DNA from: Planctomycetia bacterium
Lineage (GTDB): Bacteria; Planctomycetota; UBA8108; SXIK01
NCBI GenBank assembly: GCA_005772855.1
Contig: SXIK01000206.1
Coordinates: 1 to 44,390 of the forward strand
Length of the DNA stretch: 44,390 nucleotides
Reading direction: 5' to 3'
In this document: positions 15,635 to 23,372 of the stretch, piece after piece
Layout: each line of letters opens with the position of its first letter
Position numbering within the stretch: the stretch's first letter is position 1
Program-made: the position numbers and the translations under genes
Notes under the pieces: generated by a model
The model's database searches: none
What the model was told of the DNA's origin: nothing
Seen by the model: the letters and a program-made list of their open reading frames with translations, nothing else

Positions 15635-17043
15635 ATGCGTTGTCTCCACCGTCAAGCTCTCTGTGTCACCGCTCTCCTGAGCATCTCTGTGTCGGCGAGG
15701 ACTGCAGAGTCCACTTTTATTCGAGGCGATTCGAACGCGGATGCCCGGGTCGACATTGCCGACCCCGTCTTCACGCTGGCTTATAGCTTCCTCGGCAGCA
15801 AGGCGCCAGCCTGTGCTGACGCTGCGGATGCGAATGATGACGGCGCAATGGACATCTCGGATGCGGTCTTCACGCTTTTTTCCTCTTCCAGGGATCGACG
15901 AGGACCCCGCCTGCGCCGTTCCCCGCCGCAGGACTCGACACGACCCCTGACTCGCTTCATTGTGACGCCGGCATGGTGGGCGAAGGAACCCTCCTTCTTG
16001 CGATACACGACACCCCCCCGGCGGACCTTACAGAGTTCTGGATTACAATCCAGGAAGTCCAGGTCACTCAAGCCAACGGTACGGAGCTCCAGGTCTTCCC
16101 ACCGGCCGGCGACCCGACGGCAGAGAAGGTCGTTAACCTGCTCGACAACGCCTCCGCCTCGAGCATCATCGCTTCGATCCCCGTGCCGGCCGGAGAGTAC
16201 AGCGAGGTTGAAATCCGATTCGATCATGCCAGTGCGAGAGCTGGTGAGGCAGAGGTCCTCGTGGTCCCGGACCACGGAGACGTGGAGATCCACCTTCAAG
16301 TCCCCGTCACCGTCACGGACGGAACGCTTAGCGCCCTCGTCCTCGACTTCAACCTCACCTCCTCGCTGACCGACGGCGGAGAGGGCAAGATTTTCTTGAA
16401 CCCCGTGATCGAGAAAGACGATGACGGCGACGACGATGGCGAGGAGAGCGATGTGGAGCTGAAGGAATTCCACGGCACGGTGGCTTCGGTCGACGTGGCC
16501 TCGAATTCGTTTGTGGTCAATCTCTCCGTCCACAAGCGCCGGGGCGAGGAGACTGTAACCGCTGGCCAGGTGACGGTCGTGGTCGACGAGAAAACGTCGT
16601 ACGAGGACACCGATGGCCTGGCCGCACTTCAAGAGGGCCAGGAGGTCGAGGTGAAGGGCGATCTTCGTGAGGACGGAAGTGTTCTCGCGTCCGAAATCGA
16701 GCTGAAGTCGAATGACGAGGGTGAAGATCTCGACGACGACGGCGTGGAGGATGAAGATGAGCACGACGGTCACGATTCCGACATCGACAACGACGATCAG
16801 CCGAACCACGAGGACGAGGACGACGACAACGACGGAGTGTCGGACGACGACGACTCCGATGACGACAACGACGGCATCGACGACGACTCCGACGAAGACC
16901 ACGTGGACGACGACGGCGTGGACGATCACCACAACGGCGATGGCCATCATGATGACGGTGATGGTGAGGGCGATGAAGCCGGAGAAGGCGACGACCATCC
17001 TGGCGACAACGACGCGACGGACGATGATCCAGCGACCCCCTGA
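15635..17043 (+). CDS. Exported dockerin-like/DUF4382/DUF5666/Asp-rich protein, apparent frameshift
   Basis: One gene read in two frames. The first frame (from ATG 15635, GGAGG eight bases upstream) encodes a signal peptide and paired EF-hand-like dockerin repeats: FIRGDSNADARVDIAD, then ADANDDGAMDISDAVFTL. At the T run 15876-15881 the repeat's expected FLFQG continues only in the -1 frame, which runs to TGA at 17043. Joined, it gives about 469 residues. After the dockerin-like part come a DUF4382-like domain (about 115-240), a DUF5666-like beta domain (about 270-350), and a tail of about 110 residues made mostly of Asp, Glu, His and Gly, resembling thrombospondin type 3 calcium repeats. It is probably a calcium-binding surface protein. 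The break may be a sequencing error, a real mutation, or slippage. Confidence 0.78.
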
Positions 17044-17124
17044 GAGTGCGCCGGTGAACAACGGCCACTCGAATTGCACCGGGCGCGAAATCCCGGCGCG
17101 ACAAGGCTGAGTGCCGGAAGCAGC

Positions 17125-18191: not shown

Positions 18192-21100
18192 ATGGCAGGA
18201 TCGAAAGCTCGGACTCCCCGCCACCCCCGATATGAGATTCTGCGAAGGCTGGGCACGGGCGGTACGAGCTCGGTATTCCTTGCCCGCGACCGGCTCGACG
18301 GAGGACGAGAGGTGGCGCTCAAGATCTGCCGCCTTGAGGTCTCCCCCGAGGAGATCCTGCGCGAGTTCCGGATCCTGCGCCAGCTCAGGCATCCCGGCAT
18401 AGCGCGAGCCTTCGACTGCGGCCGGATGCCCTCCAGGGGTGCGGCCTATTTCACGCTCGAGCACGTCTCGGGCCCTGGACTTGAGGAGCATACGCGAGCA
18501 CTGCGCCGCGAGGCGGGGGCAAAAACACAAGCTCAAATCGTCTCCCTCTTCCTGCAACTCACATCGGCACTTGCCTACTTGCACGAGAAGGGACTCCTCC
18601 ACCTCGACATCAAGCCCGCGAATGTGATTATTGCGGACAATCGGGTCAAGTTGATCGACTTCGGCCTGTTTCAAAACGTCGAAATCGAGAGGCGTAGCCC
18701 GCCGCGAGGCACCGCATACTACATGGCCCCGGAGGTCATTGACGGGGGGCCGATCGACCACCGAGCCGACCTCTACTCGCTGGGCGTGACGCTGTATCGC
18801 TCGCTGACAGGGCGGATGCCCATCTCTGGGCGCACGGTCGCTGAAATAGCAGCCAACCACCGTACGCTCGTGCCACCTTCTCCTCCCGGTCTACCGGAAG
18901 CCCTCTCGCGAGTGATCCTCAAGATGCTCGCCAAGTCGCCACGACATCGCTTTCAAAGCGCCCGGGACGTGACTGCAGCCCTCGAGGGTGCGGTGCCCGG
19001 GGTCTCCCTTGTGGCAGAACCACAGTTCGAGGAGCCCGACTTTGTCGGGCGAAAGCGCGAGCTCGATGCATTCTTCAACTGGTTCAGTGGTGTGAAACAA
19101 GGCCGAGGCCAGAGATTGCTCGTCTTCGAAGGCGAAGCGGGTATCGGAAAGTCCCGGCTTGCCGAGGCCTGCGCCACCGAGATGCTCGACCTGAGCACTC
19201 AAGTGGTGCCCGTCAAGACTCACGGCGAACGTGATCAGGACGGGCTCAGGCAGGTCATCGAGAAAATCCTTGTCCTCCACCAGGCCTCGCCCACCGAGGA
19301 GCGAAGGTGGAGATTTCTCCTGACTTTTCTGGGAATCGCTTCCGACAAGAAAACCCACCGGGAGATCCAGGATCTCGATCTGGGATCGATAGAATCGCGG
19401 GTTTTCCGCGAAGCCCTCGACGTTCTCGCCGCGCGATCGGCGTATCCCCTTGTCTTCGTGATCGAGGACCTCGGCGCCTCCGATCCACGGCTGGTCCAGT
19501 TCCTGCGGACATTGAGCCTGGCAGCGGGAACGGAGACGCAGCACTTGCGGGTGGGTATCCTGGCAACGCGCAGGATTTCCGCGGGGATTGCCCCCCCACA
19601 GGAGGAATTTGAAGCCTCAGCGGTGAAGACCGTCCGGATGGGTGAGCTGACCCGCGAGGAAGGTCTCGCATTGCTCAACTGCGTTGCGCCGACTCTTTCC
19701 ACAACGGAGGCGAACCGCATCGTCAAGGCCGGCCGCGGAAACCCCGCTCTCCTGCTGGAGAAGCTTCGAGATGACCGCCAGCCGGAAGAGAGCAGCAGGG
19801 AGGACTCGCCCCGCGAGTCGCAAGTGTCCGAAGCTCTGGCAACCGCCTACGCGGCAAGAGTGACAGAACTGACCACGACCGAACGGAAGGCGCTCATCCC
19901 TCTGGCGCTCGCCGAGCGGCCACTGAGCGAGTCAACCGTTCGCGGACTTGCGAAGCTTGACAGGAAGGAGTGCTCGGCGGTGATTCAGCGGCTTGCGCGG
20001 TCTGGCCTTCTGGGGGGCACGAAGGCCGGATACCACGTCACTCACCGCGCCCGCGCGACCGTGGTCGCGGCCCTTGAATCTAGAGAGATCCAGTCGGCCC
20101 ACGACCGACTCGGAACTCAGTTCCTGAAAGATCCTCGAAGCCAGAGAGAAGCAGCACATCACCTCTTGCGCGCCGGGCAACTGCAACTCGGGCTTCAGTC
20201 GGCAGAGCGGAGCGTCGATGCTCTGCGAGCCGCAGGCCGCATCGAGGAGGCGATCGCAACCCTGCGTGATGCGATCGAGCGCGTGGATGCAGGCCGCGAT
20301 CGATCGCGGCTCCTCGAGCGTCTTGGCGAACTGGAGGCGAGGAGCGGCCGCTTTGACGCCGCGGCGGCTGCGTTCCATGAGGCTCTCGCCTTCCACACCG
20401 GCGACCCAACCGCAAGACTTCGACTTCTTCGGAAGATAGGCGGAATTCATCAGCGTCGCGGAGAGAATGAGGCCTCGAGGAAAGCGTTCGAGGAAGCCCT
20501 GGGCATCGTGGAAACTGTCGACGATCTGGGGGAGCAGCTCTACCTTTTCCAGGAGCTCTCGGCGTTCCACTTGTTCCGCGGCGACTTCGCAAAGGCGTCG
20601 ACCTTTGCCAACCGGGGCCTCGAGATACTCGCCTCCGAGCGATCGAGGATCCTGCGGAAAGAGGAATTTGCACAGCACGCGCTGAACTTTCACTCGGCCG
20701 CCGGCCACGTGTTTCTCCGGCAGTTCGAGTACGAACAAGCATCCAGGGAGCTCGTCCAGGGACTCAAGCACGCCGAAAAGCTAGGGGCGCTCTCGAACGC
20801 GGCCCTGCTGTGGAACAACCTCGGAATCGCCTACAGCCAGGATAACCGCCTGCGAGAGGCTCTGCAGGCCTACCGGCGCGCCGGGGAGCTTTCGAGGAGT
20901 CTGGGCGACAACACCGCTGTCTTCAGCATTCAGTGCAACATGGCCACGCTTCAGGCCCGCCTGGGCAAGCTTCCGGCAGCCGAGGAGGCCTTGCGAATCG
21001 CTGGCGAGATGCCACACGCCGGGAAATCGCTGAGGGCCAAGCTCTTTCTCACTCACACGAGGGGCCTTGTCGAGAGGATCGCTCTTCGTGACTCGAAGGC

Positions 21101-23372
21101 CAGATGGGATGCCACCATTCAAATCGCAGAGAAGCTGCCGGACCCTCTCTTTGCAGCCTATGGGCGCCTCTGCCAGCTCGAGAACGACATACACTTCGGG
21201 AGATGGGGCCTGGCCAGGTCGATGGGCGAACAACTCTCCGGCAGAAAGGGCAAGGACCCCCACTTCGATCGAGCCATCAATGCTCGCCTCGCCTGCCTTA
21301 CGGCCCTTTGCGGGTTAAAGGACGAGGCCCGGACGAGACTCGAGACATCGATCAAGGCCCAAACATCGATCAAGGCCCAGGGATCCGCGCTGTACGTGGA
21401 TCTCTGGGATTCCGTCTATCAGGGTCAGGCATTGCTCGAGCTGGGTGATCTCAAAGTCGCAGAGGCTCTCCTGACGACAACCCAGGCCGCATTCGAGAAG
21501 TCGCACCAGTGGCCCAGCGTGCTCGAATGCGCCATGATCCTGGCCGACCTGGCACTTCGGAGGCGAGACGCGCCAGCAGCAGCGAAGCACTTGCGCTCAG
21601 CAGCGAAGGCCCTGGCTTCCCATGACTGTCCCGGCGGCTCCCGACGGGCGAACGTCCGCATGCCCTACCTCGGTGCCCGGCTCGCACTCTTGACCTCCAA
21701 GGCAGACCGAGGGGAGCTCGAAGACCGAATCGCAGATGCGGTGGGCAGCCTCGATCCACACGACACGTCGGAGGTTGTCTGGCTCCTGGCCCTGGTGGCA
21801 GCCGAGACGGGTGATCCGGTGAGGGCGCGGAAGGCAAACGCTCTGAAACGGTCGTTCGCGGCCCATCTTGCTTCCGGGGACAAGCATGCCTACCTCGCGA
21901 GAGACCACCGCGCCCGATTGGGCCTCCTCGCGCAGCATTCCATGGGCTACCAAGACGCCACCGATTCGCAGGCCTGCCGACACTACGAGACAATCATCAA
22001 GCTGGCGCAAATTCAACAGCCGAGCCAGGCCCTGCAAGTGGTTCTCGAAGGCGCCGAGGCGAAAGCGGGGGCCGTCTTCCTTGGCGATACGCCCCGGGCA
22101 GCGATCGCGCACGGCCTGGGACAGCGCTCCGAGTCAGAGCTCGAGGATCTGCGCAGACAGGCCCTCGAGGCAGAGTCCCGGGAATCGGCGAACGCGACCT
22201 TCATTCCGCTTCGGATCCACTCCGGGGCCAGGGGGGTCCTCTACCTCGAGCTTGCTCCTCAAAAGCTCGAGGGCGCAACTCTGCGCTTTCTCGAGACGGC
22301 TACAGCCTTGCTGGCAAATGTCCTCCCTCCCACCCCGCGAAGTCGTGACGAGCGTCGTGAGCTTACCGGCTCGCTCACGAAAGCTCGGGCCAGCACGATA
22401 ACCCTTTCCACGGCGACTTTCGGGCAGACCGAGTCCCCCCGCATGAAGGAGCTCCTCGATTGGGTCCTCCGCACGCGAGGCTCCGAGCTCCCCGTCCTGA
22501 TCCTCGGTGAATCCGGCTCGGGCAAGGATTATTTGGCTCGTTACATCCACTCCCTGAGCCCAAGAGCTGAAGGCCCCTTCATCGCACAGGACTGCGCCTC
22601 CGTGCCCGAGGGGCTCCTCGAGGCCGACATCTTCGGCTACGAGTCAGGCGCGTTCACTGGCGCCGAGCGTTCAAAAACCGGGTACATTTTCGCCGCTAAT
22701 GGAGGCACTTACTACCTCGACAACGTCGACTCACTCTCACTAGAGTCGCAGGCGAAGCTCCTGCGCGTGCTCGAGGAAAAATCAGTTCGTCCGCTCGGGA
22801 GCAGCGTGGAGCGGAAGACCGATGTCAGGGTCATCGCGTCGTCGCAGCACGATTTGAAGGAGCTTTCACTCCAGGGCGCATTTCGCAAGGACCTCTATTA
22901 CCGTCTTGCGGGGATCAACCTCCATGTTCCACCGCTCCGGGAGCGCGCGGAGGATATTCCGCTGCTCCTCCACCAAATTCAGCGACAGGTCCCGGGCAAG
23001 CCGATCGAGTTCAAGCCGCAAGCGATCGATGCCTTGAAGCGGTACGCCTGGCCGGGAAATGTGCGCGAGCTCGAGACCGTAGTGCGCCGGCTCTCCGTCA
23101 CAACGGAAGGTGCCGTCGACGAAACCCGCGTGGCCGAGGTGCTTGGCAATGGCGACGTGGCCCCGTCCTTCCCCCGGTGGCTCTTCGAGGGCAAGACGTT
23201 CGAGCAGGCGATCGAGGAGGTGAAGCGGGAGTACCTCCTCGACCTCTTCGAGCGCCATGCGGGCGATCTCGCCGAGATTGCGAAGGAGATGCGCACCACC
23301 AAGCGAAACGTCTATTTCCGCTTCGCCCAGGTGGGAATCAAGCCTGTCGACCTGCGGGGAGGACTGGCGTAG
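18192..23372 (+). CDS. Ser/Thr kinase-ATPase-TPR-sigma-54 activator fusion
   Basis: A 1726-residue cytoplasmic regulator. N-terminal Ser/Thr kinase (about 14-265): GTGGTSSV loop, Lys44 (VALKI), HLDIKPAN (137-144, with Leu in place of the Arg of HRD), DFG 156-158, APE 179-181. A signalling ATPase of the AAA_16 type follows (about 283-540): FVGRKREL, Walker A GEAGIGKS (314-321), Walker B-like VFVIED (421-426). TPR-like helices fill about 640-1200. A divergent GAF-like region spans about 1265-1375. The sigma-54 AAA+ domain (about 1415-1640) has Walker A GESGSGKD (1439-1446), the sigma-54-contacting GAFTGA (1486-1491), and Walker B YYLDNVD, where Asn1511 stands in for the usual Glu. A Fis-type HTH ends the protein (about 1675-1715). 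It lies 36 bases after the cohesin-like gene and may share its transcript. No good Shine-Dalgarno is seen. Confidence 0.93.
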   Translation: MAGSKARTPRHPRYEILRRLGTGGTSSVFLARDRLDGGREVALKICRLEVSPEEILREFRILRQLRHPGIARAFDCGRMPSRGAAYFTLEHVSGPGLEEHTRALRREAGAKTQAQIVSLFLQLTSALAYLHEKGLLHLDIKPANVIIADNRVKLIDFGLFQNVEIERRSPPRGTAYYMAPEVIDGGPIDHRADLYSLGVTLYRSLTGRMPISGRTVAEIAANHRTLVPPSPPGLPEALSRVILKMLAKSPRHRFQSARDVTAALEGAVPGVSLVAEPQFEEPDFVGRKRELDAFFNWFSGVKQGRGQRLLVFEGEAGIGKSRLAEACATEMLDLSTQVVPVKTHGERDQDGLRQVIEKILVLHQASPTEERRWRFLLTFLGIASDKKTHREIQDLDLGSIESRVFREALDVLAARSAYPLVFVIEDLGASDPRLVQFLRTLSLAAGTETQHLRVGILATRRISAGIAPPQEEFEASAVKTVRMGELTREEGLALLNCVAPTLSTTEANRIVKAGRGNPALLLEKLRDDRQPEESSREDSPRESQVSEALATAYAARVTELTTTERKALIPLALAERPLSESTVRGLAKLDRKECSAVIQRLARSGLLGGTKAGYHVTHRARATVVAALESREIQSAHDRLGTQFLKDPRSQREAAHHLLRAGQLQLGLQSAERSVDALRAAGRIEEAIATLRDAIERVDAGRDRSRLLERLGELEARSGRFDAAAAAFHEALAFHTGDPTARLRLLRKIGGIHQRRGENEASRKAFEEALGIVETVDDLGEQLYLFQELSAFHLFRGDFAKASTFANRGLEILASERSRILRKEEFAQHALNFHSAAGHVFLRQFEYEQASRELVQGLKHAEKLGALSNAALLWNNLGIAYSQDNRLREALQAYRRAGELSRSLGDNTAVFSIQCNMATLQARLGKLPAAEEALRIAGEMPHAGKSLRAKLFLTHTRGLVERIALRDSKARWDATIQIAEKLPDPLFAAYGRLCQLENDIHFGRWGLARSMGEQLSGRKGKDPHFDRAINARLACLTALCGLKDEARTRLETSIKAQTSIKAQGSALYVDLWDSVYQGQALLELGDLKVAEALLTTTQAAFEKSHQWPSVLECAMILADLALRRRDAPAAAKHLRSAAKALASHDCPGGSRRANVRMPYLGARLALLTSKADRGELEDRIADAVGSLDPHDTSEVVWLLALVAAETGDPVRARKANALKRSFAAHLASGDKHAYLARDHRARLGLLAQHSMGYQDATDSQACRHYETIIKLAQIQQPSQALQVVLEGAEAKAGAVFLGDTPRAAIAHGLGQRSESELEDLRRQALEAESRESANATFIPLRIHSGARGVLYLELAPQKLEGATLRFLETATALLANVLPPTPRSRDERRELTGSLTKARASTITLSTATFGQTESPRMKELLDWVLRTRGSELPVLILGESGSGKDYLARYIHSLSPRAEGPFIAQDCASVPEGLLEADIFGYESGAFTGAERSKTGYIFAANGGTYYLDNVDSLSLESQAKLLRVLEEKSVRPLGSSVERKTDVRVIASSQHDLKELSLQGAFRKDLYYRLAGINLHVPPLRERAEDIPLLLHQIQRQVPGKPIEFKPQAIDALKRYAWPGNVRELETVVRRLSVTTEGAVDETRVAEVLGNGDVAPSFPRWLFEGKTFEQAIEEVKREYLLDLFERHAGDLAEIAKEMRTTKRNVYFRFAQVGIKPVDLRGGLA
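21345..21380 (+). repeat. 18-base in-frame tandem duplication
   Basis: Two adjacent 18-base units (21345-21362 and 21363-21380) differ at one base and encode TSIKAQ twice within the TPR region of the large regulator. It looks like a recent in-frame duplication in a linker or helix end. Confidence 0.8.

Follow-up and report, generated by a model that had tools for sequence, protein, structure and literature searches.

The window, as we call the whole stretch of 44,390 nucleotides of DNA that was analysed, contains a gene whose product joins a Ser/Thr kinase, an AAA_16 ATPase, a TPR array, a small GAF-like region, a sigma-54 activator AAA+ domain and a helix-turn-helix (HTH) in a single polypeptide (Table 1). 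Its frame opens with an ATG and is uninterrupted to the end, and Pfam places Pkinase, AAA_16, TPR, Sigma54_activat and AAA lid matches along it in that order. The preceding gene, which ends 36 bp before the fusion gene, encodes a cohesin/dockerin-like protein with a signal-peptide-like start. Farther upstream lies a dockerin-bearing gene (15635-17043, plus strand), which seems to be frame-shifted near 15880 when compared with a homologue of 55% identity situated beside the orthologue of the fusion gene in another genome (G001); a 432 aa minus-strand ORF that overlaps it (15781-17079) is probably spurious. The minus strand also encodes an FHA-GAF-adenylate/guanylate cyclase protein at 22-1662.

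Table 1 Features of the fusion gene and of the gene directly upstream, with positions in the window.
Feature	Residues	Position	Strand	Basis or remark
Secreted-type protein, cohesin-like domain and two dockerin-like repeats	316 aa	17205..18155	+	Pfam Cohesin, 9.8e-6
Kinase - AAA_16/STAND - TPR - GAF-like - sigma-54 AAA+ - HTH fusion	1,726 aa	18192..23372	+	
Ser/Thr (Hanks-type) kinase domain	14-262	18231..18977	+	Pfam, motif table; PknB nearest solved chains
AAA_16 (STAND-like) ATPase	284-442	19041..19517	+	Pfam
TPR array	675-935	20214..20996	+	Pfam, best regions
Shortened GAF-like fold	about 1277-1375	22020..22316	+	GAF_3, AF2 model
Sigma-54 activator AAA+ domain plus lid	1414-1641	22431..23114	+	Pfam, AF2 model
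Position of PspF N64 (glutamate-switch partner)	D1467	22590..22592	+	Alignment
GAFTGA loop	1486-1491	22647..22664	+	Motif position
Position of Walker B catalytic glutamate (PspF E108)	N1511	22722..22724	+	Alignment; motif YYLDNVDS
Divergent Fis-like HTH	about 1672-1716	23205..23339	+	Canonical bEBP C-terminus profile

Domains and integrity of the fusion protein

Pkinase matches residues 14-255 (1.3e-43), and the catalytic residues are all present (the Lys in VALK, the alpha-C Glu, HxD, Asn, DFG and APE), with HLD replacing HRD. The intact set in the motif table bears out the complete Ser/Thr kinase that a sequence-only reading of this DNA had proposed; the suggestion that the kinase phosphorylates its own AAA+ domain is speculation. 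Four of the other fused proteins are pseudokinases, in which the HRD Asp, DFG and often the Lys are gone and the sigma-54 AAA+ site is intact. The AAA_16 match (3.9e-12; 47.4 bits against a cut-off of 32.6) includes a P-loop, GEAGIGKSR, at residues 314-322 and a Walker B segment, FVIEDL. It is followed by the TPRs, which are matched by several Pfam families (TPR_12, 8.9e-18) and whose helical repeats probably reach beyond the tabulated array on either side.

The GAF-like region named in the sequence-only reading holds at most as a divergent, shortened version of the fold. GAF domains are the top solved structures for an AF2 model of residues 1240-1404 (pLDDT 74; E about 1e-3), but the Pfam GAF_3 score lies under the cut-off (E=0.0056, 17.5 bits) and profile-profile comparison with hhalign gives the region a probability of 3%. 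A similar qualification applies to the Fis HTH: a profile made only from canonical bEBP C-termini finds a divergent version in the expected place (residues 1667-1715, 12 bits), but Pfam makes no HTH_8 call in the protein.

The output domain is recovered far more strongly, with Sigma54_activat at residues 1414-1577 (5.1e-58) and AAA_lid_14 at residues 1583-1641 (1.6e-15). Its AF2 model fits FleQ and NtrC1 at 1.7-2 A (Foldseek against FleQ, 1.2e-26), and a Walker B mutant of NtrC1 is among the matches. Walker A (GESGSGKD), the arginine fingers (FRKDLYYRL) and sensor II (WPGNVREL) are intact, and by its fold and GAFTGA loop the protein is a member of the sigma-54 activator family. In four other fused proteins the loop reads GAFSGA, GSFTGA, GAFTDM and GAYTGL.

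Of the 29 Sigma54_activat matches in the genome (5.03 Mb, 244 contigs), six fall in frames longer than 1,700 aa. All six share the order kinase, AAA_16, sigma-54 AAA+ and HTH, so that the fusion protein has five paralogues of full architecture in its own genome. An orthologue from a genome of the same family aligns end to end with residues 4-1724 at 53% identity, and one from a genome of the same order with residues 7-1721 at 35%. Two known modules in one frame of a draft genome could have been two genes joined by a gene-model or assembly error, as the sequence-only reading itself had considered, but this full-length conservation in paralogues and orthologues leaves that explanation practically no chance, and the one-frame fusion of kinase, ATPase, TPR and GAFTGA-bearing AAA+ domain is real.

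Asparagine at the Walker B glutamate and the paired upstream gene

What the sequence-only reading overlooked is the absence of the Walker B glutamate from the AAA+ domain. In YYLDNVDS the canonical Asp-Glu pair is Asp-Asn, with D1513 two residues past N1511, and the Asn expected as switch partner at the PspF N64 position is Asp; because of the missing Walker B glutamate, we do not class the protein as a canonical hydrolysing bEBP. The claim that one molecule carries out open-complex formation is therefore not secure, since PspF E108Q is a poor ATP hydrolyser with a strong preference for pre-melted DNA (PMC4132715).

The Walker B Asn is common to all five members of a clade, namely the fusion protein, a paralogue in the same genome (C40), two proteins of a second genome and one of a third. 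It is kept across the clade at only 35-53% full-length identity, together with GAFTGA, Walker A, both arginine fingers and sensor II, and the N64 position is Asp in four of the five. We estimated how common such sites are with a DNA pattern (GAFTGA plus an Asp and then a codon with a first base other than G), which yielded 20 non-Glu Walker B domains in 392 genomes of the phylum, 12 of them in the order of the fusion protein. As 59 of these genomes gave 601 matches for the Glu pattern and 5 for the non-Glu pattern, the substitution affects about 1% of GAFTGA-bearing domains in the sampled genomes. A family of standalone activators from the same order, represented by four loci, has an Asp-Asn Walker B with Ser or Gly at the N64 position and forms a group apart from the fusion clade.

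At each of the four complete Asn-clade loci, a homologue of the cohesin/dockerin-like gene lies immediately upstream, on the same strand and 20-40 bp off. Full-length matches of its product in the genomes of 30 relatives occur only at clade loci (473-483 bits; the next match scores 121), and the upstream gene is a different one at a paralogue that has the Walker B Glu (C50). The fusion gene is probably co-transcribed with its secreted-type neighbour, and its regulon thus plausibly includes secreted dockerin proteins. Dockerin or cohesin-dockerin genes also adjoin ten other order-restricted fusions, but with more than 76 dockerins in each genome this adjacency is only suggestive and may be due to chance. 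A scan for a sigma-54 (-24/-12) promoter upstream of the operon at four loci found nothing above shuffled controls; bEBPs are able to act at promoters elsewhere than nearby. The genome has two RpoN genes, on different contigs (C106 and C161), with the RpoN boxes intact in both. It also has 22 PSD1 domains, a sign of a PVC-group bacterium, probably of the Planctomycetota.

Spread of kinase-sigma-54 fusions in the phylum

The fusion is not unique to this genome: among the loci retrieved there are 35 distinct kinase-sigma-54 fusions, from 18 genomes that represent 14 or more families of the phylum. A scan of a single named genome returned only a distant standalone activator. The sequence-only reading had allowed that many characterised proteins might share this architecture; none was found in the literature searched (open-licence papers).

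In a tree of 108 sigma-54 domains, which has moderate support and includes some incomplete loci, the fusions do not all fall in one clade. The fusion protein belongs to a group of 20 proteins, all of them long (18 with a kinase call and two without), that is confined to its order and one genome of the same class, and the remaining fusions are scattered among standalone activators. Given this scatter, fusion has likely been repeated, or lost, in the course of evolution.

At three loci a standalone activator had been taken to lie beside a separate kinase-AAA_16 gene; we rejected this split arrangement, as longer DNA shows the second gene to be a full fusion at two of them, while at the third it continues past the contig end. 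Several families do have a tandem pair in which a standalone sigma-54 activator lies directly upstream of a full kinase-sigma-54 fusion (five loci, at one of which the contig ends within the second gene), and the products of such pairs are possible partners in mixed hexamers.

Mode of action and comparison with known systems

The textbook view is that sigma-54 activation strictly requires ATP hydrolysis. The laboratory variant PspF E108Q is defective in hydrolysis yet engages and remodels RNAP-sigma-54 with ATP, and a working PspF ring tolerates alternating defective subunits while DNA remodelling continues (PMC4132715). Ordinary hydrolysis-driven melting is therefore not to be assumed for the Asn clade. 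The position-108 variants described are E108A, D and Q (PMC4132715); E108N is not among them, and slow hydrolysis in the clade is accordingly an extrapolation from E108Q.

From the observed architecture, residues, conservation and gene pairing we infer an activity, a signal and a regulon. We give a probability of about one half to the reading that the fusion protein is a one-component kinase/STAND/TPR regulator of sigma-54-RNAP that hydrolyses ATP slowly, perhaps works in mixed hexamers and is linked to the secreted protein. The AAA+ output is joined straight onto an input module made up of kinase, STAND-type AAA_16, TPR solenoid and small GAF-like domain. Binding of a ligand or partner at the TPR/STAND part would bring about ATP-dependent assembly, the kinase would set a threshold by phosphorylating itself or partners, and the AAA+ ring would then show its GAFTGA loops to RNAP-sigma-54. 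With Asn in Walker B, ATP would probably be held tightly and hydrolysed slowly, by analogy with PspF E108Q, and the protein may engage the holoenzyme stably and in an ATP-dependent manner, either melting promoters slowly or forming hexamers with Glu-bearing bEBPs or paralogues that provide the hydrolysis. The RpoN genes, the intact GAFTGA, Walker A, arginine fingers and sensor II, and the FleQ/NtrC1 fold all support a sigma-54 role, while the lack of an above-chance promoter at the four loci, the divergent HTH and the weak GAF match count against this explanation.

One may postulate that the AAA+ domain has given up its role in driving transcription and become a nucleotide-binding oligomerisation module or a DNA-bound regulatory module, such as a repressor or a kinase adaptor. 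Loss of the catalytic Glu fits this scenario, as do the weak HTH, the absence of a nearby sigma-54 promoter at the four loci and the part loss seen in other fused relatives (the pseudokinases and the GAFTDM and GAYTGL loops). Retention of GAFTGA, Walker A, the arginine fingers and sensor II at 35-53% full-length identity suggests selection on sigma-54 engagement, however, and we consider the scenario rather improbable.

We find it unlikely that the protein is instead a normal hydrolysing activator in which D1513 (in DNVD, comparable to DE-I-D in the classical AAA proteins) or D1467 replaces the glutamate. The remaining motor residues are all intact, the N64 partner is Asp in most of the clade, and among the first 108 domains the +2 residue is Asp or Glu at every one of the 13 non-Glu Walker B sites and at 1 of 95 Glu sites. 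Nevertheless, only 4 of 9 independently found non-Glu domains have this acid, which lowered an apparently obligatory residue to a trend; two independent changes only, on well-supported branches, back the coupling, and no known AAA+ protein was established here as using the +2 residue. A catalytic acid shifted to +2 is thus possible in some of these domains, but not general.

Returning to slow hydrolysis, a wider proposal, which we regard as doubtful, is that a natural class of sigma-54 regulators lacking the Walker B Glu either works through ATP binding and slow hydrolysis or takes part in mixed rings as subunits that do not hydrolyse. In this class the fused kinase/STAND switch would stand in for hydrolysis as the point of control, and the signal would come from, or pass to, the secreted cohesin/dockerin partner. 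With a conserved natural Glu-to-Asn clade it becomes possible to ask whether ATP binding suffices on its own at real promoters, and whether hydrolysis by neighbouring subunits does. The fusions also suggest that many bacteria of the phylum have Ser/Thr kinase and STAND sensing wired into sigma-54 control within one polypeptide.

HstK-type dual Ser/Thr and His kinases (kinase-AAA-GAF-HisKA) have a front end that resembles that of the fusion protein, but their output is a histidine kinase and not a sigma-54 activator. With bEBPs that have GAF or other sensory N-termini (the NifA, NorR and FhlA type), and with the AAA+ domains of NtrC1, PspF and FleQ, the fusion protein shares the AAA+ fold, GAFTGA, the arginine fingers, sensor II and the position of a C-terminal HTH; it differs in that a kinase-STAND-TPR part of about 1,400 aa precedes the output domain, Walker B has Asn for Glu and the HTH is divergent. 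PspF E108Q likewise has an amide at the catalytic Glu position and an intact GAFTGA, whereas in the fusion clade the residue is Asn and not Gln, the change is natural and the N64 partner is usually Asp. The literature searched gave no characterised member of the regulator class; kinase-TPR proteins with other outputs are already known, among them a Clostridium thermocellum kinase-6TPR-GGDEF protein of 1,826 aa and an M. tuberculosis kinase with a MalT-like domain (PMC1262709). These too have an N-terminal Ser/Thr kinase and a TPR/STAND-like relay to a separate output domain, which in the fusion protein is a sigma-54 AAA+ domain with an HTH.
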